Shown here one piece after another: positions 10,640-48,720 of a stretch of DNA of 64,000 bases. Position numbers and translations under genes: made by a program. The stretch is from Algoriphagus sp. TR-M9 (GTDB lineage Bacteria > Bacteroidota > Bacteroidia > Cytophagales > Cyclobacteriaceae): positions 4,336,501 through 4,400,500 of the forward strand of contig NZ_CP115160.1 in NCBI RefSeq assembly GCF_027594545.1. The letters are read 5' to 3'. The stretch's first letter is position 1. Each line of letters begins with the position of its first letter. The notes under the pieces are model-generated. The model saw only the letters and a program-made list of their open reading frames with translations, was not told the origin of the DNA and did not search any database.

Positions 10640-12139
10640 TTGAAAAGTATCCAACCTTGGGTTTTCTTCCCTTCCGCTGGACTCATCCTCATCTTTGTCA
10701 CCCTTACTTTAATCTTCCAAGAATCTGTAGGTACGCTGTTTGAAAACATTCAAGCTACCATCTCCAAAGATTTCGGGTGGCTGTATGTCATAGCCGTCAA
10801 TGTAGTCCTAGTTTTCTGCATCTACCTTGGATTTGGCAGATATAAAAACATTAGGCTGGGAGGCCCCGATTCCAAACCGGAATTCAGTACTTGGGCCTGG
10901 CTCAGTATGCTGTTCAATGCCGGCATAGGCTTAGTATTAATGTTTTATGCAGTGGCAGAGCCGATCAGCCATTTTTCTAATCCGCCTTATGGTGAAGCTG
11001 GTACACTAGCTGCTGCTAATAATGCACTTAACCTTTCCTACCTGCATTGGGGGCTTCACGGCTGGGGGGTCTATGCTTTGATGGGACTGGCTATTGCGTT
11101 TTTCACCTATAATCGTGGCCTTCCATTGGGAGTGCGCTGGATATTATACCCACTTTTGGGAGATAAACTGAAGGGTCCCATCGGACACCTTATCGATACC
11201 ATGGCTGTAGTAGCCACTATGTTTGGGCTGGCCACTACCTTAGGACTGGGGATTCAGCACATTAATTCCGGTATGAATTACCTTTTTGGTGTACCAGATA
11301 GTCCTCAAGTACAGGTTATACTTATTGGAATTATAACAATATGTGCCACCATCTCTGTGGTCTCAGGCCTGCATAATGGCATTCAACTTCTAAGCAAAAT
11401 AGCCTCAATCATGGCTATAATTTTGATGGCATTTATGCTGATCGTAGGACCAACATTGTTCATTATCGGGTCCACGGTTCAGAGCACCGGCTTTTATCTA
11501 CAAAGTCTAATCGGCACCTCCACCTGGATGGAAATTTACCGAGGTACGCACTGGATGGACAGTTGGACATTTTTTTATTGGGCCTGGTGGTTTGCTTGGG
11601 CTCCATTTGTGGGACTGTTTATCGCCAGAATATCGAAAGGCCGGACCATCCGAGAGTTTATATTGGGCGTATTGTTAGGTCCTACCGCTGCGAGTATAAT
11701 TTGGATTTCCATTTTTGGAAGTACTGCTTTTCATATCGAGCTTTTCGGGCCAGGAGGAATCAGTGAGGCCGTTCAGGAAAACATCAATACTGGATTATAT
11801 TCTTTGCTGCAAATGTTCCCTCTTCCCTACCTAAGTATTCTTTTTGTGGTGATCGCTGGAGTGATATTCTTTGTCACCTCTTCAGATAGCGGATCGCTAG
11901 TGATTGATTTTATCACCAGCGGTGGCAAAGATGATACTCCAGTGAAATTGAGGATATTCTGGGCACTCATTGAAGGAGCTGTGGCTGCGGTTCTGGTATT
12001 AGGTGGAGGCTTAGTGGCACTCCAAACAGGATCTTTGGTCACCGGATTGCCAGTTTGTGTATTGATGTTACTGGTTTGTTACGCTGTCAACAAGGCTTTG
12101 AAAAAGTATCAAGAAGAACAAAAAGAAAACCGCGAATAG
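10640..12139 (+). CDS. betT: BCCT family choline/betaine transporter
   Basis: A 499-residue protein with about twelve hydrophobic segments. The family core is clear: FNAGIGLVLMFYAVAEP (start of TM3 region), WGLHGWGVYALMGLAIAFFTYNRGLPL, and the aromatic substrate box YWAWWFAWAPFVGLFIARISKGRTIREF, followed by VIFFVTSSDSGSLVIDF. BCCT carriers take up choline, betaine or carnitine, driven by sodium or protons. There is no usable ATG: TTG at 10640 gives MKSIQPWVFFPS just before the first helix, with an in-frame stop at 10580. It is convergent with the choline-dehydrogenase-type gene, which supports choline as substrate. No copy of the susC/betB operator is seen upstream. Confidence 0.9.
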   Translation: MKSIQPWVFFPSAGLILIFVTLTLIFQESVGTLFENIQATISKDFGWLYVIAVNVVLVFCIYLGFGRYKNIRLGGPDSKPEFSTWAWLSMLFNAGIGLVLMFYAVAEPISHFSNPPYGEAGTLAAANNALNLSYLHWGLHGWGVYALMGLAIAFFTYNRGLPLGVRWILYPLLGDKLKGPIGHLIDTMAVVATMFGLATTLGLGIQHINSGMNYLFGVPDSPQVQVILIGIITICATISVVSGLHNGIQLLSKIASIMAIILMAFMLIVGPTLFIIGSTVQSTGFYLQSLIGTSTWMEIYRGTHWMDSWTFFYWAWWFAWAPFVGLFIARISKGRTIREFILGVLLGPTAASIIWISIFGSTAFHIELFGPGGISEAVQENINTGLYSLLQMFPLPYLSILFVVIAGVIFFVTSSDSGSLVIDFITSGGKDDTPVKLRIFWALIEGAVAAVLVLGGGLVALQTGSLVTGLPVCVLMLLVCYAVNKALKKYQEEQKENRE

Positions 12140-12169: not shown

Positions 12170-12199
12170 CCCTCTTAATCGATTTTTAGAGGGATTTTT
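12170..12199 (+). terminator. Terminator between the convergent transporter and dehydrogenase genes
   Basis: CCCTCT (12170-12175) pairs with AGAGGG (12188-12193), followed by ATTTTTC. It overlaps the last codons of the minus-strand gene. A second perfect stem, CCGCGAAT/ATTCGCGG (12130-12151), spans the transporter stop. Confidence 0.5.
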
Positions 12200-13847
12200 C
12201 TTTGTCAGTCAGTTCTTTCTGAAAATATGGAGCATGCTCCGGATCCAGAGGTTTTTTCCCCAAAATAATATCTGCGGCCTTCTCTGCCACCATCATCACT
12301 GGCGAGTAAATATTCCCATTGGTAACATAAGGGAATACGGAAGCATCCACTACACGAAGGTTTTCTACACCGTGCACTTTCAGGGTTTTAGGATCAGTGA
12401 CATCCATAGGACCAACACCCATTCTACAGGTAGCGCAAGGATGATAGGCACTTTCCCCTTCTTTGGCCACAAAATCAAGAATCTCCTCATCCGTCTGAAC
12501 ATCCTTGCCGGGCGAAAGTTCTTCGCCCATTAATTCAGACATGGCTTCAGTTTCAATTAATTTTCTAGAAAGACGAATCGCTTCTATCCACTCTTTTCTT
12601 TCTTTTTCAGTAGAAAGATAATTGAATAAAATACTCGGGTATTCGGTAGGATCAGCTGATTTGATTTTCACCCGCCCTCGCACATCCGTATTCATAGGCC
12701 CCACGTGTAACTGAAATCCATGGCCTTCTTTGGGAGCGGTACCATCGTATCGTATCGCAATAGGTAAAAAGTGAAATTGAAGATTTGGGTAGTCTACCTC
12801 CTCATTACTTCTGATAAATCCGCCCGCCTCAAAATGATTGGATGCACCTAGTCCTTTTTTCCTAAACAACCAGTCAAATCCGATTTTAGGAGCTTTCCAC
12901 GGACTTAATGCTGGGTATAAACTCACTGGTTTTTTGGCTGCCCATTGAACATACACTTCTAAGTGATCCTGCAAGTCCTCGCCCACACCAGGCAAGTCAT
13001 GAACCACTGGAATTCCAAGACTTTTCAGGTGTTCCGCATTTCCCACTCCTGAAAGCTGCAGAAGTTGCGGAGAATTGATGGCGCCTCCGCAGGAAATGAT
13101 TTCCTTTCCATAAACCTGCTTTACTTTACCGCCTTGCTTGTACGCTACACCCACTGCTTTTTTTCCTTCAAACAGCACCCGCATCACGGTGGCTTGGGTT
13201 TCTATATGAAGATTTTTTCTCTGGCCTTTTACCGGATGAATGTAGGCCCGAGCTGCATTGAGCCTCCTGGAATTGTAAATCGTTTGATCAAACTTACCAA
13301 ACCCTTCTTGCTGGTAGCCATTGACGTCATCTGTGAGCGGATATCCTGCTTCCTGAACTGACTCAAAAAAGGCATCAAACAGGGGGTTGTCGCATTTCGG
13401 TGTAGTCAACTTTAAGTTTCCCTGATCACCACGGTAAGCATCTCCTCCGATCAATCGATCCTCTACTCGCTTAAAATAGGGGAGGCAGTGCGCATAATCC
13501 CATTCTTCCATTCCCTCATCCTTAGCCCACTTTTCAAAATCCATGGCATTGCCACGGATCCAGATCATGCCGTTGATACAGGAAGATCCACCCAAAACCT
13601 TTCCCCGGGGTTGGGCTATTCTTCGATTGTGCATATGAGGCTCAGGATCTGAGGAATATCCCCAGTTGTAATTAGTCCCTGTAAGCAAATACGTCAATGC
13701 CGCTGGCATGTGTATTCTAAAATCCCATTTGTAATCAGGTCTCCCTGCCTCAAGTACTAGTACTTCATTGGTTGAATTTTCACTAAGTCGGTTGGTCAAA
13801 ACGGCTCCAGCTGAACCTCCACCGACAATTATATAATCGTACGTCAT
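12186..13847 (-). CDS. betA: GMC-family FAD oxidoreductase, choline dehydrogenase type
   Basis: 553 residues from ATG 13847 (MTYDYIIVGGGSAGAVL); a TTG six codons earlier is less likely. The Rossmann motif GGGSAGAV and the first GMC signature GKVLGGSSCINGMIWIRG are followed by the second signature GAINSPQLLQLSGVG, and the C-terminal block SAYHPCATCRMG carries the catalytic histidine (His469), ending NIYSPVMMVAEKAAD. This arrangement is closest in style to BetA, which oxidises choline to betaine aldehyde. Other primary-alcohol dehydrogenases share the fold. It is the last gene of a minus-strand run susC-susD-phosphodiesterase-betA and converges on the BCCT carrier, which favours choline. Confidence 0.88.
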   Translation of the reverse strand: MTYDYIIVGGGSAGAVLTNRLSENSTNEVLVLEAGRPDYKWDFRIHMPAALTYLLTGTNYNWGYSSDPEPHMHNRRIAQPRGKVLGGSSCINGMIWIRGNAMDFEKWAKDEGMEEWDYAHCLPYFKRVEDRLIGGDAYRGDQGNLKLTTPKCDNPLFDAFFESVQEAGYPLTDDVNGYQQEGFGKFDQTIYNSRRLNAARAYIHPVKGQRKNLHIETQATVMRVLFEGKKAVGVAYKQGGKVKQVYGKEIISCGGAINSPQLLQLSGVGNAEHLKSLGIPVVHDLPGVGEDLQDHLEVYVQWAAKKPVSLYPALSPWKAPKIGFDWLFRKKGLGASNHFEAGGFIRSNEEVDYPNLQFHFLPIAIRYDGTAPKEGHGFQLHVGPMNTDVRGRVKIKSADPTEYPSILFNYLSTEKERKEWIEAIRLSRKLIETEAMSELMGEELSPGKDVQTDEEILDFVAKEGESAYHPCATCRMGVGPMDVTDPKTLKVHGVENLRVVDASVFPYVTNGNIYSPVMMVAEKAADIILGKKPLDPEHAPYFQKELTDKEKSL

Positions 13848-13910
13848 CGATTTTTTGTAATTCAAAGAATAAGAAAGACAAGATCTCCTTGCAAAAGCTA
13901 ATCGCCTTCC

Positions 13911-15161
13911 TTATTCTGTTTCTTCAATAATCCAATAGTTCAAGAAGCCTGCAGGGGTTTCTAAAACTACTTTATAAAACTCAGAATCAGGCTTATCTGT
14001 TTGGAATGAATACGCTTCAGCCTCCAGTTCCACTTCACCTATAGCTTCATAGGTATCCTTTCCACCTGTTTTAAAGTTATTGCTGGTACTGAGCCAGACT
14101 TGCCCATTTCCTTCTGAAGAAAGGGATTTCCAGCTTAAGTGGATGGTATTACCTTCCTTCACCGCTTTGAACTGACTGGCGTTCACAGGACCTATAAAAG
14201 GCACGCCATCGAGTTCCATGGCTTTGTCCTGAGGCACTTTCAAATCCAGGAAATTAACGATGGAAGGGAAAATATCAACCATTTGACCGGTTTCAGCGGA
14301 ATGAGCATTGAGTTCCTCAGCGTTAGTAGCTATCCAAACACTTCGCTCTCGATCACTTTGCCCACCGTGGCCATACCCATTCATCTCCCGACCATGATCT
14401 GTGGTGATGACGATCAGCCAATCTTCATTGAATTTAGCTTCTCGCTCTTGGATGGCTTCCCAGACTCTACCGATCTGCACATCAGCTTTTTGCACTGCAT
14501 CGACAAACTCTGGACTGTTTCCATACCGATGAGACATATCATCTGTGAACTCGAGGTACATCCAGGATAAATCCGGCGCATTTTCACGAATCGTTTTAGC
14601 TGCTTCTTTTGATACAGCTTCATCTATATTATAGATGAAAATCCTTCCTTCATCATGCGGATACTTAAGCGTATCCAGTTCCAAGCCATCGAAGTGATAA
14701 TCGAAAGTCAACTGATTGGTTTGCGGTAATTTTGCCCCGGCAAGTTTGGTTCTATTATCCAGCCAGGTGGAGAATATACCGATAGACTTTTCTGGATATT
14801 GCTCCTTAAATATGCTGAAAATGGTGGGATAATGGTAATTGGGATCTTTGATGCTATTTCCCCAGACATTGTGCTTATTGGCCCATACTCCCGTCAAAAG
14901 GGAATTGTAACCCACCGCAGAGATCGTTGGGGTTTGGCTATAAGCATCTTTTTCTCCACCCATAGTCGCCTTCATCAAGCCACCTTCTGCTACGATTTTG
15001 TCCAAATTAGGGGTAGCCACTGTGTCGATAACATCATCGGGAATTCCATCTACAATGACGAAAAGGACTTTTTTAGCTTTTGGTTCTTCCTGATTTTCTT
15101 TGGTAGAACATGCCTGTAAAGCCAACAGACCCATACAGCTTGCTAGAATAAATTTCTTCAT
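13911..15161 (-). CDS. Alkaline-phosphatase-superfamily phosphodiesterase lipoprotein (NPP-like)
   Basis: 416 residues from ATG 15161; the lipobox ends LLALQAC at Cys18, so it is membrane-anchored. Metal and nucleophile positions of the nucleotide pyrophosphatase/phosphodiesterase group are visible: VIVDG (Asp38), TISAVGYNSLLTG with Ser81 in the nucleophile slot, TDDMSHRYG, ITTDHGREMNGYGHGG. A CxPxR sulfatase motif is absent, so it is not a choline sulfatase. NPP family members hydrolyse phosphodiesters; the choline-specific mammalian NPP6 also has serine as nucleophile (from memory). Residues about 335-416 look like a fibronectin-type beta domain. Its place between susD and betA suggests glycerophosphocholine-like substrates; this is inference. 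Confidence 0.82.
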   Translation of the reverse strand: MKKFILASCMGLLALQACSTKENQEEPKAKKVLFVIVDGIPDDVIDTVATPNLDKIVAEGGLMKATMGGEKDAYSQTPTISAVGYNSLLTGVWANKHNVWGNSIKDPNYHYPTIFSIFKEQYPEKSIGIFSTWLDNRTKLAGAKLPQTNQLTFDYHFDGLELDTLKYPHDEGRIFIYNIDEAVSKEAAKTIRENAPDLSWMYLEFTDDMSHRYGNSPEFVDAVQKADVQIGRVWEAIQEREAKFNEDWLIVITTDHGREMNGYGHGGQSDRERSVWIATNAEELNAHSAETGQMVDIFPSIVNFLDLKVPQDKAMELDGVPFIGPVNASQFKAVKEGNTIHLSWKSLSSEGNGQVWLSTSNNFKTGGKDTYEAIGEVELEAEAYSFQTDKPDSEFYKVVLETPAGFLNYWIIEETE

Positions 15162-15227
15162 TTTAATAATTAGGTAACTAGAGAAGCCCGGAATGAAAAA
15201 CACCGGGCTTCAAATTCAAATTGTCTT

Positions 15228-17021
15228 TTATTCCCAACCGAATATCTGTGTAAGATTTGGGTTGAGTGTAACCTGCTGAATAGGAACTGGTCGGTAATAG
15301 TATTTAGGCTCTACAAAGTCTCTTTGCTTTGTATCAGTCACCATCATTCCTCCATTCTCACCATTCTGAAGAAATACATCAACGTTTTCCTCGATAGTGC
15401 CGGCTTTATAATAGATCAACTCTTCTCCGAGACTATTTTTCTCTTTGGCATCGCCCACTGGAATATCGGCGTCTTTACTGATCAAAATTATATCCTCTAT
15501 TCCATCTCCTGTAAGATCATACTTGCCCAGACCATCAAAGTACATTCCTTGAGGAATATTTTCGAATAGTTTGCCGGCGTGCCATCTCATCATGTCATCA
15601 TATCTATATCCTTCTACAGCTAGTTCTATTCTTCTTTCCCTTCTAATCTCCAGATGAACACCTAGGTTTGCTCCGCTCAGATTTGGGTATTTTTCTACCA
15701 AAAATGGATCAGGATTCCTATTTGCATCGCTCAGATTCAGAGCTGGCATCCCTGCTCTTTGGCGTAGTAGGTTGATGGACATGTCCAGGTCAGCCTGGGT
15801 CAGCTCGTCAAGCTCTACCTTTGCCTCTGCATAGTTCAGCAACACTTCCGCATAGCGATATACCGGAAAATCTGCGCTTCCCGCCTCTACATTGTCTATC
15901 GTATTCTGATAGCCTTTGAGCTGGTGATAACCTGTAAAATTTTTACTCAAAGTCTGGATGTAAGGCTTAGTATTGGGAGCCTGAACCCAACCTGGATAGA
16001 CTATAGTTTGCTTTAGTCTAGGGTCTCTGTTTTCAAACTCTTCTACAAAGCCTTTAGTCTCATAACCAGGAACAGAGGAATAATAGGTGCCATCCTTCAT
16101 TAAGTAGCTCATCACCAAATCTCTAGCCGGAGATTGCTCATAATCACCAAAAACTCCGGTGTTGATATCCCAACCCCTATCTTTTTCAGCGTCGTACGGG
16201 TTTACCAGGATTACTTCAGCATTGCCCAGTAGATCTTGAGATGAGAACAAAGTAGCGTAGTCACTTTCAGGATTACCCGTGGAATGAATAGAAAACATGC
16301 CAGAATTCATGATCTCACTGGATAGATCACGCGCCTTTTGTATGAGTGCCGTAGCGGATCCTTCTAATCCTAGTTCGCTATGGTATTTTCTGTAAGTGCC
16401 TTCATACAGCGCTAGACGTGCATAGAAGGCTTTCACTGCCCATACTCCAGGAGTCCCACTTGGCACTTCTTCCCGGACGTTATTAGCGGCGAATTCCAGA
16501 TCCTCCATTACTTTGGACATCACCATTTCTCTAGAGTCCCGGGCTTTATAAAGCTGCTCTTCATCACTTGGATCTAGGGTGTGCTCATACCATGGCACAT
16601 CTGAGTATCGCTTGATCATTCCGAAATAGAATACAGCTCTGTAATACCTGGCCAAACCTACATAATGTGCAATCGCCTCTTCAGAACCAACTGCCTTCTC
16701 ATAGTTGTCCAGAAAGTAGTTGATATCCCTCAAGGCACCCCAATTCCAGCCACCCGTGAGGGTTTGGGAGCTTGGAGTTCCAGTAACTATGTTTTTGATT
16801 TCCACTGCCCCGGTAGTCCCTAGGTTATCACTGCTTTGATCAGCCTGATAGCTCCCGGGGCCAGCCATGGTAAGTAGGCCATTGACATAAAGTTCCAGAT
16901 CTTCCTCAGTTTTGAAAAACTCCTCTGGTGCCACAGAAGTCTGTGGATACCTATCTAGAAAATCATCGTTGCAGGAGGACAAAGCCAACACTGCGCTCAA
17001 TAGGACGATATACTTTTTCAT
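15228..17021 (-). CDS. SusD-like nutrient-binding outer-membrane lipoprotein
   Basis: 597 residues from ATG 17021 (MKKYIVLLSAVLALSSC, lipobox Cys17). The open frame reaches 17114, but those 31 codons are repeat B. Typical RagB/SusD features: DDFLDRYPQTSVAPEEFF near the start, YYRAVFYFGMIKRYSDVPW in a TPR helix, and the C-terminal block LEIRRERRIELAVEGYRYDDMMRWHAGKL. SusD proteins sit as a lid on the SusC barrel and bind the ligand outside the cell. It lies downstream of susC, but separated by 231 bases holding two repeat B copies instead of the usual short gap. The substrate is unknown; context suggests choline phosphoesters. Confidence 0.93.
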   Translation of the reverse strand: MKKYIVLLSAVLALSSCNDDFLDRYPQTSVAPEEFFKTEEDLELYVNGLLTMAGPGSYQADQSSDNLGTTGAVEIKNIVTGTPSSQTLTGGWNWGALRDINYFLDNYEKAVGSEEAIAHYVGLARYYRAVFYFGMIKRYSDVPWYEHTLDPSDEEQLYKARDSREMVMSKVMEDLEFAANNVREEVPSGTPGVWAVKAFYARLALYEGTYRKYHSELGLEGSATALIQKARDLSSEIMNSGMFSIHSTGNPESDYATLFSSQDLLGNAEVILVNPYDAEKDRGWDINTGVFGDYEQSPARDLVMSYLMKDGTYYSSVPGYETKGFVEEFENRDPRLKQTIVYPGWVQAPNTKPYIQTLSKNFTGYHQLKGYQNTIDNVEAGSADFPVYRYAEVLLNYAEAKVELDELTQADLDMSINLLRQRAGMPALNLSDANRNPDPFLVEKYPNLSGANLGVHLEIRRERRIELAVEGYRYDDMMRWHAGKLFENIPQGMYFDGLGKYDLTGDGIEDIILISKDADIPVGDAKEKNSLGEELIYYKAGTIEENVDVFLQNGENGGMMVTDTKQRDFVEPKYYYRPVPIQQVTLNPNLTQIFGWE

Positions 17022-17114
17022 CTGTTTATAATTTGTTTTTAAAAGGTCAGATGGAATCTCGCATGGATGATAATCATACCAGTGTGTGACGTATTCCGTC
17101 ATGCTCGATTTCAT
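17022..17114 (-). repeat. Dispersed repeat family B, copy 2
   Basis: A 93-base unit between ATGAAATCGAGCATGAC (minus strand, from 17114) and AAATTATAAACAG at the susD start codon. It is similar along its length to copy 1 at 9903-9993, with the same end points relative to a start codon. Confidence 0.7.
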
Positions 17115-20569: not shown

Positions 20570-20585
20570 TTGAATATTCATTCAA
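20570..20585. promoter_or_regulatory. Predicted BetI-type operator at the susC promoter
   Basis: TTGAATATTCATTCAA differs at two positions from the perfect operator at 21820-21835 and 48676-48691. On the minus strand its first three bases are the last three of the -7 box TAATATTG, so a bound protein would block polymerase. Confidence 0.72.
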
Positions 20586-20613
20586 TATTAAATACTGATT
20601 TTTACATTTCAAA
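20583..20613 (-). promoter_or_regulatory. susC promoter
   Basis: On the minus strand: TTTG (20613-20610), a 19-base spacer, then TAATATTG (20590-20583). This fits the Bacteroidota primary-sigma pattern TTTG-N19-TAnnTTTG with one mismatch. The transcript would start near 20576, leaving a leader of about 90 bases. Confidence 0.65.
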
Positions 20614-20795
20614 GGAATTAAATTTCATTTAGTAATATCTTAACGAATAATTAATACTGAGTGAGGATATTTTACGTTCTGGAAAAAGTACGATAATAAA
20701 GGTCATGAATGAGGTGGTTTACCTACGAAAAAATGGGTTCAAGACTCAGGATAGAAGGATATTTGGAATAGAAAAAAACAGCTCCACCGGGTCAA

Positions 20796-20825
20796 AAATA
20801 AAAAAGCAGCCTATCAAGCTGCTTA
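20796..20825 (-). terminator. Terminator after the phosphoesterase gene
   Basis: On the minus strand AAGCAGCT pairs with AGCTGCTT-type sequence around a short loop and is followed by a T run. It lies about 25 bases after the stop and separates this gene from susC. Confidence 0.7.
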
Positions 20826-20848
20826 TCAAAGGATAGGTGAAATCACAT

Positions 20849-21745
20849 CTACACCAATGGGAAGTAAGAATTTTCTACGCTGCCATCTGCATAGAGTTTC
20901 AGGATGGCATAGCCGGGTGGTGTTTCCAGGTAATATTGCTTTCCTGCTGACTCTTCATCTCCCTCTCCCCACCAGAAGCCACTCAAGGATCCATTGCAGA
21001 AATAATGCACGTCATTGTACCAGGTTCTGTCCAATAGGTGCTGATGACCACTTAGGCATACACGCACCTTATCTTTGTGCTTATAAAATAGTTTTTTCAA
21101 TTCCTTGTGATCCTTATGTTGACCACCTACTAGAGCATTTGTAATCGAGGTAATCGGAAAGTGGGACATGATCAGGGTAGGTGTGCCGGTAGGTAAGTTT
21201 TCCAAGTCCTCTTCCAACCATTTCATTTGCTCCTCACCCAGGCTGATCCCTTCATGGTTTCCATCCAAAATAACAAAGTGCCAATTTCCCTTATCAAAAC
21301 TGTAGTATTCAGCGGGCATCCCCAGCCTTTTCACCACATAGGATTTGCCGTACATGGGTTCTTTTTCTTTATTGGCGACATCCCACCAGGGGTCATGATT
21401 GCCAATGCAGCTGTACACCTCTTGCTCTTTTATCCTTTCACAAAAGAGATCCCATGCCTGCCATTGCTCGAGCACTCGATCCCTGCTCACCCCGTCATAG
21501 GATGCATCATGAATACTGTCCCCTCCATTCAGGTAAAAGTCCGGCTGATGCGCTTTCACCCGCTCTAGCCATTCCATGGCACGGGTAGGTATATTATCCT
21601 CTGGCCTAATGTGAACATCTGTAATATGTGCCACCGTCAAATAATCTCCTTTTGTTTTAGGTTCAGATGCTGAAGCTAAACCTGCCGGAAGTACTACCCC
21701 CGTAGTGAGTAGGCTGGACTTGGCTAGAAAACTTCTCCGTTTCAT
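20849..21745 (-). CDS. Tat-exported calcineurin-like metallophosphoesterase
   Basis: 298 residues. The N-terminus KRRSFLAKSSLLTTGVVLP is a twin-arginine export signal. All metallophosphoesterase motifs are present in order: D-x-H (Asp43, His45 in ITDVHI), GGDS, GNHD, SHFP and GHQH, giving a two-metal centre. The enzyme would act in the periplasm on phosphate mono- or diesters. Its own promoter carries the exact operator shared with betB, and it lies beside the TetR gene, so I infer a role in releasing choline from phosphocholine or a related ester. The family alone does not fix the substrate. Confidence 0.88.
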   Translation of the reverse strand: MKRRSFLAKSSLLTTGVVLPAGLASASEPKTKGDYLTVAHITDVHIRPEDNIPTRAMEWLERVKAHQPDFYLNGGDSIHDASYDGVSRDRVLEQWQAWDLFCERIKEQEVYSCIGNHDPWWDVANKEKEPMYGKSYVVKRLGMPAEYYSFDKGNWHFVILDGNHEGISLGEEQMKWLEEDLENLPTGTPTLIMSHFPITSITNALVGGQHKDHKELKKLFYKHKDKVRVCLSGHQHLLDRTWYNDVHYFCNGSLSGFWWGEGDEESAGKQYYLETPPGYAILKLYADGSVENSYFPLV

Positions 21746-21819
21746 GTTTTTTTGCTGGTAATTTATCTATAGAACTAGTTGCTTAGAAAGAACCTTTCGA
21801 AGATCTGCAAGTGCCAATC

Positions 21820-21835
21820 TTGAATGGTCATTCAA
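21820..21835. promoter_or_regulatory. Predicted BetI-type operator between phosphoesterase and TetR genes
   Basis: TTGAATGGTCATTCAA, a palindrome with two central bases unpaired (TTGAATG-NN-CATTCAA minus the overlap), lies in the divergent interval. It overlaps the -7 box of the phosphoesterase promoter by three bases and is 82 bases before the TetR start, so autoregulation is possible. It is identical to 48676-48691. Confidence 0.78.
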
Positions 21836-21863
21836 TATTATATATTGTTAATTTTTAATCAAA
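21833..21863 (-). promoter_or_regulatory. Promoter of the phosphoesterase gene
   Basis: On the minus strand: TTTG (21863-21860), 19 bases, TAATATTG (21840-21833). Spacing and sequence equal those of the susC promoter, and the operator starts at the same base of the -7 box. Confidence 0.68.
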
Positions 21864-45812: not shown

Positions 45813-46280
45813 ATGCAAGACCCTAAGTCACTTACTTCCGTAGCCCTATTTCACGAAACCTTCAAGCACCCTGTTTTGCCTTCTCCCACTATTCCTGAGA
45901 AAGTAAGATGCGAGCTCCGGGTTTCCCTTTTGGCTGAAGAACTGAAAGAACTCGAAGAAGCTATCGCCAACGATGATCTGGTAGAGGTGGCAGATGCCTT
46001 GTGCGACTTACAGTACGTTTTATCCGGTGCGATTTTGGAATTTGGGCTGGGAGAAAAGTTCAAAACACTCTTTGACGAAGTGCAGCGATCCAATATGAGC
46101 AAAGCCTGCAAAACGGAGGAGGAAGCCCAAGCCACCGTGGCACATTACCAGGCCAAAGGAACCGAGTGCTTTTATGAAAAAGAGGGGGATCTATTCCTGG
46201 TCTTCCGACAAGGCGACCGCAAAACCTTGAAATCTGTTAATTATTCGCCGGCTGATCTCAGTGGGATCATCAAATCATAA
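45813..46280 (+). CDS. MazG-like / phosphoribosyl-ATP-pyrophosphohydrolase-type NTP pyrophosphatase
   Basis: 155 residues. The all-alpha NTP pyrophosphatase motif is ELRVSLLAEELKELEEAIANDDLVEVADALCDLQYV: EExxE and ExxD residues that bind Mg2+. Such small proteins hydrolyse nucleoside triphosphates or modified nucleotides, often as house-cleaning enzymes. The C-terminal 45 residues (GDLFLVFRQGDRKTLKSVNYSPADL) look like a small substrate lid. It converges on the mscS gene with a 6-base overlap of the 3' ends. Confidence 0.82.
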   Translation: MQDPKSLTSVALFHETFKHPVLPSPTIPEKVRCELRVSLLAEELKELEEAIANDDLVEVADALCDLQYVLSGAILEFGLGEKFKTLFDEVQRSNMSKACKTEEEAQATVAHYQAKGTECFYEKEGDLFLVFRQGDRKTLKSVNYSPADLSGIIKS

Positions 46281-47141
46281 AGAATCCGGTGTGGCTGTTT
46301 TCAAGCTTTCACTCTGGTAATTCTTCAGTTCTACTATACGGGCCGGCATATTAAAGCCGGCCTTTTCCATTGCCGTGAGTACAGTCAAAATCGCACTGCT
46401 TTTGACCACAGCATCAGAAATCGCTCTTTCAAAAGTATCCACCCAAAAGGTAATTTGGATATTCAGCGTACTTTCCCCCATTTCAGTCACCCATACCTGC
46501 GGAAGCTTGTCCTGAGTCAGTACCCCCGGAACTTCCAAAATAGATTTCCTGATCAAATCCAAAGCTGCATTGTAGTCTGAGCCATAATCCAGGCCCAGCA
46601 TAAAATCATAGCGCAAAAATCCATCGATGGTATAATTGACCAAAGGGTTTTTCAGGATCATCCCATTTGGGATAAAAACATCTTTGCCATCTGCCGTTTT
46701 GACCTGGGTATCGCGAAGGTTCATAGCGAGAACTGTCCCGCGGATTCCGCCTATATCCACGATATCACCTACGCGAAAGGGACGTTTGAAGGCCAGAATG
46801 ATTCCTGCCAGGAAGTTTTCTCCTATATCCTTTAAGGCAAAGCCTATGATAAAAGCGGAAATCCCAGCTCCTGCCAAAAGCCCTGAAACAATTCCTGTCA
46901 AACCGATGACCCTTAATACTATCAAAAGACCAATGAGTATGATCAGGGTACTGAAAATTCCTGCCAAGAAATTGGCCAGCAAGGAATCGTCCATTCGCCT
47001 CACCAGACGAACTCTTAAAAAACGCTTGGATTTTCGGGCAAAGAACACAAACAATAAGAATATTGCCAGTGCTACTCCCCCGATAAGCAGCCATCTTTGT
47101 ATAGTTGGCCAGCTGGAAGATAGATTGATAAATTCATCCAT
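46275..47141 (-). CDS. MscS-type mechanosensitive channel
   Basis: 288 residues from ATG 47141 (MDEFINLSSSW); an upstream TTG is less likely. Three helices (about 17-36, 56-77, 80-112), the third being the pore helix GIVSGLLAGAGISAFIIGFALKDIGENFLAGIILA, then the beta domain FRVGDIVDIGGIRGTVLAMNLRDTQVKTADGKDVFIPNG. It opens under membrane tension to release solutes during osmotic downshock. It lies 50 bases downstream of betB on the same strand, a sensible pairing since betaine is the solute such channels release. Confidence 0.92.
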   Translation of the reverse strand: MDEFINLSSSWPTIQRWLLIGGVALAIFLLFVFFARKSKRFLRVRLVRRMDDSLLANFLAGIFSTLIILIGLLIVLRVIGLTGIVSGLLAGAGISAFIIGFALKDIGENFLAGIILAFKRPFRVGDIVDIGGIRGTVLAMNLRDTQVKTADGKDVFIPNGMILKNPLVNYTIDGFLRYDFMLGLDYGSDYNAALDLIRKSILEVPGVLTQDKLPQVWVTEMGESTLNIQITFWVDTFERAISDAVVKSSAILTVLTAMEKAGFNMPARIVELKNYQSESLKTATPDSL

Positions 47142-47190
47142 TGGAGAAAAATACAAAAAGTAAATCAAAGTTGATTTCTCTCTGATCTGG

Positions 47191-48642
47191 TTAAAAAGGA
47201 TTCCCTAAATCCTTCATCGCCACATAGACCGTTTTCCGTTGGGAATAGTGTTCTATCGCAGCCAAGCCGTTTTCCCGACCGATTCCAGATTGCTTATTTC
47301 CTCCAAAAGGGATTTCTACCGGATTGATATTATAAGTATTGATCCAGCACATGCCTGCTTGCAAGTTAGCCACTGTTCTGTGAGCTCTGCGCATATCGTT
47401 GGTGTACACACCGGCAGCCAGGCCAAATGGAGTGTCATTTGCGCGGCGGATCACTTCTTCTTCCTCCTGAAAGGTCAAAATGGTCATCACTGGTCCAAAA
47501 ATTTCCTCTTTTACAATTCTTTCTTCCTCTTTATGGCTGACGAAAATAGTAGGCTCTACAAAGTACCCCCCTTCACACCCAGGCACTTTTACCTGATTTC
47601 CTCCGTAATGCAATTCTGCACCTTGCTCTTTTCCCAGCTTGATGTAGCTCATCACTTTTTCAAAATGAGTTTGATTGATCAAAGCGCCAATTTGGGTTTC
47701 TGAATCAGCAGGATCTCCAATTTTAAGTGCTTTGGTTTTCTCTATCAGTCGCTCAATAAATTGCTCCTTGATGGATTCGTGGACATATACCCGGGTTCCG
47801 TTGCTACAGATTTCTCCTTGAGTATAGAAGTTTCCTAGCATGGCTCCATAGACCGCTTCGTCCAAATCTGCATCTTCAAAAATGATTATCGGGGATTTAC
47901 CTCCCAGTTCCAAAGTCACATGCTTCAAGGTATTCGCTGAGGCCGCCATGACCTTTTTACCCGTGCCCACCTCACCGGTTATGGATACTTTGGCAATATC
48001 TGGATGCGCAGTCATCATTTGGCCTACCTCTGCATCGCCCTGCACTACATTGAAAACTCCATCAGGCATTCCGGCTTCTTTGAAAACCTCTGCCAACTTA
48101 TAAGCTGTCAAAGGAGTGAGTTCGGCAGGTTTGAAAATCATCACATTGCCGCAGGCCAGCGCTGGAGCCGCTTTCCAACAGGCAATTTGAATGGGGTAAT
48201 TCCAGGCACCGATCCCGGCACATATTCCCAAAGGCTCCCTTTTGGTATAGGCAAAATCTCCACCCAACTCATAATGCTCCCCATGAAGTGAGGGAGCCAA
48301 ACCCGCATAATACTCCAGGCAATCTGCACCGGAAATAACATCTACAGCAATAGACTCTTTGATAGGCTTGCCAACATCCTGAGTCTCCAGTAAGGCCAAC
48401 TCCTCATTTTTTGCTCTCAACAAGCCTGATGCTTGGTGCAAAATCCTACCACGCTCAGTAGGGGACATGGCAGACCAAACCTGAAATCCCTTTTTTGCAG
48501 CTTGAACAGCTTTCTCAAAATCTTCCTGAGAAGCACCTGTTACCACATGAGTAATTTCTCCTGTTGCTGGGTTATAGTTGTCAAACTGCTTGCCGGAACC
48601 GTTAACCGGCTGGTTGTCGATAAAAAGAGGGATGGTTTGCAT
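47191..48642 (-). CDS. betB: Betaine-aldehyde dehydrogenase
   Basis: 483 residues of the ALDH superfamily. GIGAWNYPIQIACWKAAPALACGNVMIFKPAE (NAD site), VTLELGGKSP with the general-base Glu, and GEICSNGTRVYV with catalytic Cys279 are all present. The C-terminal run INTYNINPVEIPFGGNKQSGIGRENG is close to BetB in style. It oxidises betaine aldehyde to glycine betaine. It lies 33 kb from betA, yet its promoter has the same operator as the phosphoesterase gene next to the BetI-like regulator. mscS follows 50 bases downstream. Confidence 0.92.
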   Translation of the reverse strand: MQTIPLFIDNQPVNGSGKQFDNYNPATGEITHVVTGASQEDFEKAVQAAKKGFQVWSAMSPTERGRILHQASGLLRAKNEELALLETQDVGKPIKESIAVDVISGADCLEYYAGLAPSLHGEHYELGGDFAYTKREPLGICAGIGAWNYPIQIACWKAAPALACGNVMIFKPAELTPLTAYKLAEVFKEAGMPDGVFNVVQGDAEVGQMMTAHPDIAKVSITGEVGTGKKVMAASANTLKHVTLELGGKSPIIIFEDADLDEAVYGAMLGNFYTQGEICSNGTRVYVHESIKEQFIERLIEKTKALKIGDPADSETQIGALINQTHFEKVMSYIKLGKEQGAELHYGGNQVKVPGCEGGYFVEPTIFVSHKEEERIVKEEIFGPVMTILTFQEEEEVIRRANDTPFGLAAGVYTNDMRRAHRTVANLQAGMCWINTYNINPVEIPFGGNKQSGIGRENGLAAIEHYSQRKTVYVAMKDLGNPF

Positions 48643-48675: not shown

Positions 48676-48691
48676 TTGAATGGTCATTCAA
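48676..48691. promoter_or_regulatory. Predicted BetI-type operator at the betB promoter
   Basis: TTGAATGGTCATTCAA, identical to 21820-21835. On the minus strand it begins with the last three bases of the -7 box, exactly as at susC and the phosphoesterase gene. Confidence 0.78.
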
Positions 48692-48720
48692 AGTTAGAGG
48701 ACTCTTGAAAAGAGTGCCAA
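48689..48720 (-). promoter_or_regulatory. betB promoter
   Basis: On the minus strand: TTG (48720-48718), a 21-base spacer, then TAACTTTG (48696-48689), a perfect -7 box. The start codon is about 46 bases further on. Confidence 0.6.

Follow-up and report, generated by a model that had tools for sequence, protein, structure and literature searches.

The palindrome that recurs at three promoters of the 64-kb window (the whole stretch of DNA analysed here) is very likely the operator of a TetR-family regulator encoded divergently from one of them, and the three promoters probably form a single regulon in this genome. The predicted regulon comprises the susC–susD–phosphodiesterase–betA operon, the gene for a Tat-type phosphoesterase, betB together with the MscS-type channel gene behind it, and probably tetR itself. 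We consider it probable that the regulator is a BetI-related repressor acting at this operator, that it is released by a choline-type compound, and that the genes under its control lead from SusCD uptake to betaine. The features on which this reading is built are collected in Table 1.

Table 1. Genes, operator copies and promoter elements in the window, with the matches or observations that identify them.
Feature	Position in window	Strand	Evidence or remark
BCCT-family choline/betaine-type transporter, convergent with betA, without an operator of its own	10640-12139	+	PF02028
betA (choline dehydrogenase), final gene of the susC operon	12186-13865	-	TIGR01810, 820.5 bits (cut-off 732.1); start likely near 13847
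Type I phosphodiesterase/NPP-type lipoprotein	13911-15203	-	PF01663; start likely an internal Met near 15161
SusD-type lipoprotein	15228-17114	-	PF07980
SusC-type TonB-dependent outer-membrane transporter, 1077 aa	17253-20486	-	TIGR04056, 816.4 bits
Operator TTGAATATTCATTCAA (two changes), susC promoter	20570-20585	.	susC promoter site also present in related loci
-7-like box TAATATTG, susC promoter	20583-20590	-	TTG at 20610-20612 as -33-like element
Calcineurin-like phosphoesterase, 298 aa	20849-21745	-	PF00149; Tat-like KRRSFLAK start
Operator TTGAATGGTCATTCAA, between phosphoesterase gene and tetR	21820-21835	.	kept upstream of tetR in relatives
-7-like box TAATATTG, phosphoesterase promoter	21833-21840	-	TTG at 21860-21862
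tetR, BetI-related TetR regulator, 194 aa	21917-22501	+	PF18665, 141.9 bits
MscS-type channel, directly behind betB, probably same operon	46275-47168	-	homologue behind betB elsewhere
betB, betaine-aldehyde dehydrogenase	47191-48642	-	NF009725, 763.9 bits (cut-off 593)
Operator TTGAATGGTCATTCAA, betB promoter	48676-48691	.	exact at 6 of the 11 betB promoters of Algoriphagus
-7 box TAACTTTG, betB promoter	48689-48696	-	TTG at 48718-48720

The adjacent susC and susD genes (TIGR04056 and PF07980) identify a SusCD locus. An earlier note on this DNA had placed a Tat-type phosphoesterase, a susC–susD–phosphodiesterase–betA group and betB downstream of the three sites, and the domain and family matches agree with those assignments. 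The N-terminal KRRSFLAK of the phosphoesterase is presumably a Tat-like motif. The phosphodiesterase gives a predicted structure with a mean pLDDT of 90.4. The betB product falls just below the cut-off of a second family model, TIGR01804 (661.4 bits, cut-off 668.6). An MscS homologue lies behind betB at seven of the eleven Algoriphagus betB loci, that of the host included, which might link betaine synthesis to osmotic release.

Promoters of Bacteroidota have the layout TTG/TAnnTTTG, which is also that of the elements at the three sites. The coordinates of the three copies were reproduced, two of them identical and that at susC differing in two positions, just as the earlier note had claimed. 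Re-reading the sequence also bore out its observation that all three copies start at the same base of a minus-strand –7 box, with a TTG lying 19–21 bases upstream. Read on the minus strand, the palindrome opens with a TTG that forms the end of TAATATTG at both the susC and the phosphoesterase promoters, and of TAACTTTG at the betB promoter; a further TTG stands upstream by 19, 19 and 21 bases, respectively. The site is 83 bp from the start of susC, 74 bp from that of the phosphoesterase gene, 81 bp from that of tetR and 33 bp from that of betB. All six Algoriphagus betB promoters that have the site carry TAAATTTG or TAACTTTG immediately next to it. In related loci, 51 of 88 sites at the genes for SusC, phosphoesterase and phosphodiesterase keep the exact TAnnnTTG register and 37 do not.

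How specific is the palindrome to these promoters? The genome searched is a single contig of 4,816,080 bases, of which the window occupies positions 4336501-4400500. The exact sequence TTGAATGNNCATTCAA occurs twice in the 4.8 Mb, both times in the window, where 0.04 occurrences are expected from base composition. The degenerate form TTGAAYRNNYRTTCAA, derived from the sites of close relatives, occurs exactly three times, again all in the window, with 0.6 expected; the reversed-pattern control gave none in either search. The genome-wide search that the earlier note had proposed places all three exact TTGAAYRNNYRTTCAA sites at these promoters and none elsewhere. When up to two mismatches are allowed there are 27 sites in the genome versus 10 in the control. 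The sole extra site with one mismatch to the strict form, at genome position 4008404, falls within coding sequence and was rejected as a further member of the regulon. Statistics taken from the 64-kb window alone are uninformative, as a scan at three mismatches found 6 sites versus 7.5 expected.

Because TTGAAYRNNYRTTCAA was derived from relatives, a named set of distant loci provides a fairer test, though it overlaps in part with the loci used for the derivation. The set comprises the best 80 of 215 loci found, divided into 38 close loci (L139–L176) and 42 distant ones (L177–L218), the latter including Arenibacter, Pedobacter, Flavihumibacter, Larkinella and Prolixibacteraceae. Conservation in related genomes had been suggested as a further check, and it is extensive in this set. 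All 38 of the close loci (37 exact) and 33 of the 42 distant ones (19 exact) have a site, with one mismatch or none, no more than 300 bp upstream of tetR, compared with 0.3 and 0.5%, respectively, in shuffled controls. At the other promoters of these best 80 loci there is no site in 746 (0/351 plus 0/395). In two loci (L204 and L215) a detached phosphodiesterase gene has its own site directly upstream; in L218 the site runs into the beginning of the phosphodiesterase ORF as called mechanically.

The palindrome appears to go with the regulator. We compared 18 Algoriphagus stretches, 15 of them without tetR (14 holding a phosphodiesterase homologue and one, G328, holding betB) and drawn from 15 of the 50 Algoriphagus genomes lacking a tetR match, and three with a divergent tetR. 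No site with at most one mismatch is present in any of the 15 stretches without tetR; nor do these contain a full SusC–SusD pair beside the phosphodiesterase, with a SusC-like gene (38–39%) adjoining it in two. By comparison, all three stretches with a divergent tetR (38–40% identical) have an exact site upstream of tetR and an adjoining SusC gene. In tetR-less Algoriphagus (L256–L266) the phosphodiesterase homologue is found in another neighbourhood, in several cases near a gene of 513–520 aa.

The earlier note described the regulator as resembling BetI. In favour of that likeness, the best NCBIfam models for the protein are those of BetI and the operator dyad is similar; yet the scores lie far below the cut-offs (35.5 of 118 bits for NF001978 and 31.3 of 201.3 bits for TIGR03384), and the C-terminal domain is PF18665 rather than the BetI-type PF13977. 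As the NCBIfam equivalog cut-offs are not reached we do not use the name BetI for this protein; by its sequence the window regulator is BetI-related, and by curated cut-offs it is not BetI. It scores 23.1 bits with TetR_N, just below the cut-off of 24. All 24 regulators scanned are recognised by both BetI models (E ≤ 0.01), and 13 of the 24 by PF13977, E. coli BetI being included in each case. The predicted structure has a mean pLDDT of 90.7, and a fold search with it returned generic TetR matches, with the choline-bound TetR 4kwa at rank 8. The regulator is present in 66 of 295 genomes of the host's family (E ≤ 1e-15), and judged by this protein the closest named relative is Algoriphagus vanfongensis (92% identical).

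The choline reading is supported by the recurrence of betB, betA and CHT genes in genomes that carry tetR. We scored 72 Algoriphagus genomes, 22 of which are <90% complete or >5% contaminated. The regulator gene is present in 22 of the 72 (19 close, and three at about 40% identity). It accompanies betB in 10 of the 11 genomes with that gene, betA in seven of seven, and a CHT1-type choline transporter in four of four. Fisher tests that ignore ancestry give P = 1.1e-5 for betB with all tetR genes, 1.6e-6 for betB with close tetR genes and 3.4e-5 for betA. In the window's genome one operator copy stands in the promoter of betB and another in that of the betA-containing operon. Across Algoriphagus, the betB promoter has the exact operator in 6 of the 11 genomes with betB; it is absent from this promoter in G227, G298 and G299, where tetR is present, in G328, and in G250, where betB follows tetR. 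In G328, which is 89% complete, the betB–mscS pair is kept, and neither tetR nor the site was found.

The choline genes are connected to the regulator in several different ways. In the clade of the window betA lies in the SusCD operon with the BCCT gene adjoining, and betB is under the operator; betA and BCCT genes are found near tetR in five named loci among the best 80 of 215 (L139–L143). A sixth betA-like match near tetR (32%) is a GMC enzyme of A. yeomjeoni. In that species (G250, L144) tetR, betB, the GMC oxidoreductase gene and then a CHT gene stand side by side, and the CHT protein scores 700 bits with 9rws_A (high affinity choline transporter) and 409 bits with 8j74_A (High affinity choline transporter 1). 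Both Echinicola that possess betB, two of six Echinicola-type genomes, have an operator with one mismatch followed by betB, betA and CHT, on a different contig from that of tetR. Close bacterial homologues of CHT1 were observed beside or within bet gene groups in both Algoriphagus and Echinicola (L066:15246-16838; also L226, L249 and L250). A search of the host genome at E ≤ 1e-80 gave no CHT gene; there the BCCT gene stands beside betA. Taken from gene content and gene order, a choline compound is a plausible inducer, and plausibly also part of what SusCD carries.

The positions of the operator suggest how the regulon would work. In the absence of inducer a TetR dimer would mask the start region of each of the three promoters along with the end of its –7 box, a position in which it should block transcription, and it would also sit upstream of its own gene. 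Accumulation of choline, or of a close compound freed from a choline phosphoester, may then release the repressor. Derepression would provide the SusCD importer, the exported lipoprotein phosphodiesterase, the Tat-type phosphoesterase, choline dehydrogenase and betaine-aldehyde dehydrogenase. Acting jointly, these products would capture and cleave compounds of the phosphocholine type and convert the choline to glycine betaine. We infer choline as the inducer, and choline phosphoesters as the substrates of the hydrolases.

How much of this is shared by other genomes? SusC and SusD are both present at ≥40% identity in 69 of the named loci (best 80 of 215), and in 53 of these 69 the phosphodiesterase is present too. 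A homologue of the phosphoesterase is found in 34 of the same best 80, some merely 26–29% identical. The widely conserved unit, as read from these sequences, is TetR–SusC–SusD, usually with the phosphodiesterase, and the bet genes are lineage-specific additions. The best explanation, and in our view a likely one, is that this unit is old and that it acquired bet genes and choline transporters later, in some lineages. The earlier note had one regulator joining SusCD, hydrolysis and betaine synthesis. A single operator and a single TetR for SusCD, two phosphoesterases, betA and betB are supported by our results, but the connection to betA and betB is limited to some Algoriphagus and Echinicola.

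These distributions bear on the strongest of the rival explanations, in which the signal is something other than choline, such as the body of a phosphodiester substrate or one of its products. The regulon would then serve general phosphodiester scavenging, and bet genes would have been recruited in a few lineages since the substrate often carries choline. This is what one might read into the TetR–SusC–SusD units that exist without betB: there is no betB match (E ≤ 1e-150) in any of 12 Cyclobacterium-type genomes (g68) or in four of the six Echinicola-type genomes (g48), and 9 of the 19 Algoriphagus with a close tetR gave no betB match. The phosphodiesterase family is, moreover, common without tetR; its homologues occur in 62 of the 72 Algoriphagus genomes, tetR in 22, and we therefore rejected the idea that the enzyme is exclusive to the regulon. 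At least 10 of the named loci (best 80 of 215) also add a gene of the endonuclease/exonuclease/phosphatase family. Against a non-choline signal, choline genes have been joined to the TetR–SusC–SusD unit in three or more distinct ways, and the operator is similar to that of BetI, which senses choline in E. coli. We regard a non-choline signal as unlikely, and continue to favour choline.

Several loci carry further genes in or beside the unit. In Cyclobacterium loci a DUF5916 gene stands right behind the phosphodiesterase gene, where the window has betA (L075:16960-19170). The endonuclease/exonuclease/phosphatase-family gene lies within the SusCD operon in Echinicola and some other loci (L068:2039-2986 and L200:2712-3797); this superfamily includes the sphingomyelinases. 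A gene related to those of sarcosine oxidases, which passes the N-methyl-L-tryptophan oxidase model, adjoins tetR at L047:8371-9528; the arrangement was seen only in Lunatibacter (L047 and L169 are the same place), and we give it little weight.

A second rival is that of an osmotic-stress regulon, in which the regulator would read osmolyte status, SusCD would import an osmolyte or its ester, and the MscS channel behind betB would belong to the same response. The repeated betB–mscS pairing noted above (7 of 11 loci) and the BCCT and CHT transporters beside bet genes are in keeping with it. However, the exported phosphoesterases would have no role in such a regulon, and TetR–SusC–SusD is retained in genomes without a betB match, so that we consider this very improbable.

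Exact copies of the palindrome also occur away from the regulator. Of those outside the tetR locus in relatives that carry tetR, 14 were read (L235–L248), seven lying within ORFs and seven between them; a BLAST comparison of one of these, L241, with choline genes gave no match. A further 10 occur in a set of 12 Algoriphagus genomes without tetR, and of the two examined L251 lies inside a gene and L252 beside another kind of TetR. The latter, in genome G260, is a PF22604-type TetR (L252:2973-3578) whose upstream end carries TTGAACGTTCATTCAA in exact form, so this type of palindrome is not private to the present regulator family. The sites in the tetR-less genomes are what could be cited for the three palindromes being chance occurrences or the sites of another regulator, an explanation that we can virtually dismiss given the conservation of the site upstream of tetR, its absence from the tetR-less loci examined, and the location of all three exact genomic sites at the three promoters.

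A bet regulon linked to SusCD was not described in the titles and abstracts found by our literature searches, which covered open-licence papers. Many SusCD pairs have no assigned substrate and are usually assumed to carry glycans. The BetI-like operator offers an idea of the substrate for a group of SusCD pairs extending from Algoriphagus to Pedobacter and Arenibacter, namely choline phosphoesters such as glycerophosphocholine. If this is correct it would be one route by which Bacteroidota obtain choline for betaine, and the short DNA signature allows the regulon to be read out from other genomes. More tentatively, and with rather less confidence than for the regulon of this genome, we suggest that there may be a SusCD family in the Bacteroidota dedicated to choline phosphodiesters under a BetI-related repressor, to whose operator several lineages have independently connected choline oxidases and transporters of their own. 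The range of SusCD transport would then include, besides glycans and peptides, a nutrient from phospholipid head groups.

The closest known parallel to the regulatory part of the system is BetI, of E. coli and of Alphaproteobacteria. The sequence TTGATTGGACGTTCAA in the E. coli betI–betT intergenic region, which we take to be the footprinted BetI site, has one mismatch to TTGAAYRNNYRTTCAA; it is the sole match at up to two mismatches in 7 kb, a span in which 37 of 200 shuffles also had one. The window regulator shares with E. coli BetI membership of the TetR family, the dyad TTGA-N8-TCAA, the association with betA and betB, and the divergent arrangement. Unlike the BetI of betIBA–betT, to which it is 14% identical, it lies below the BetI cut-offs, has PF18665 in place of PF13977, and is tied to SusCD and exported phosphoesterases. 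The palindrome of R. pomeroyi BetI1, ATTGACG-CGTCAAT (PMC12442346), has a centre shorter than that of the Bacteroidota operator.

Like SusCD nutrient-uptake loci, the window has adjoining susC and susD genes with hydrolases in the same operon. Most SusCD loci are devoted to glycans, and regulators of other types control most of them. Unlike these, the window has phosphoesterases and a choline dehydrogenase instead of glycan enzymes, and a divergent BetI-related TetR.

Among the hydrolases a comparison can be made with ENPP6, a choline-specific glycerophosphodiesterase whose pocket residues we took from PMC4757880. In a weak alignment (E 5e-05) equivalents of Asp32, the nucleophile Ser71, Tyr75 and Tyr188 are present in all 30 phosphodiesterases aligned, and of Glu190 in 26 of the 30; the retention of these pocket positions counts in favour of the choline reading. 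In contrast to ENPP6, Ala replaces Tyr72 in all 30 and the loop cysteines Cys142 and Cys154 are missing; the window phosphodiesterase has no cysteine beyond the signal peptide and lipobox. A fold search with its model placed sulfatases nearest and ENPP6 at rank 45. With Tyr72 and the loop cysteines absent and sulfatases first by fold, we rejected its identification as ENPP6.

The transporters provide a last comparison. The paper on sfCHT, a bacterial Na+-dependent choline transporter, used two Algoriphagus homologues in an alignment (PMC13220886). We presume that 9rws is sfCHT. By its matches to 9rws_A and 8j74_A, the A. yeomjeoni gene that lies beside tetR–betB is like CHT1 and sfCHT.
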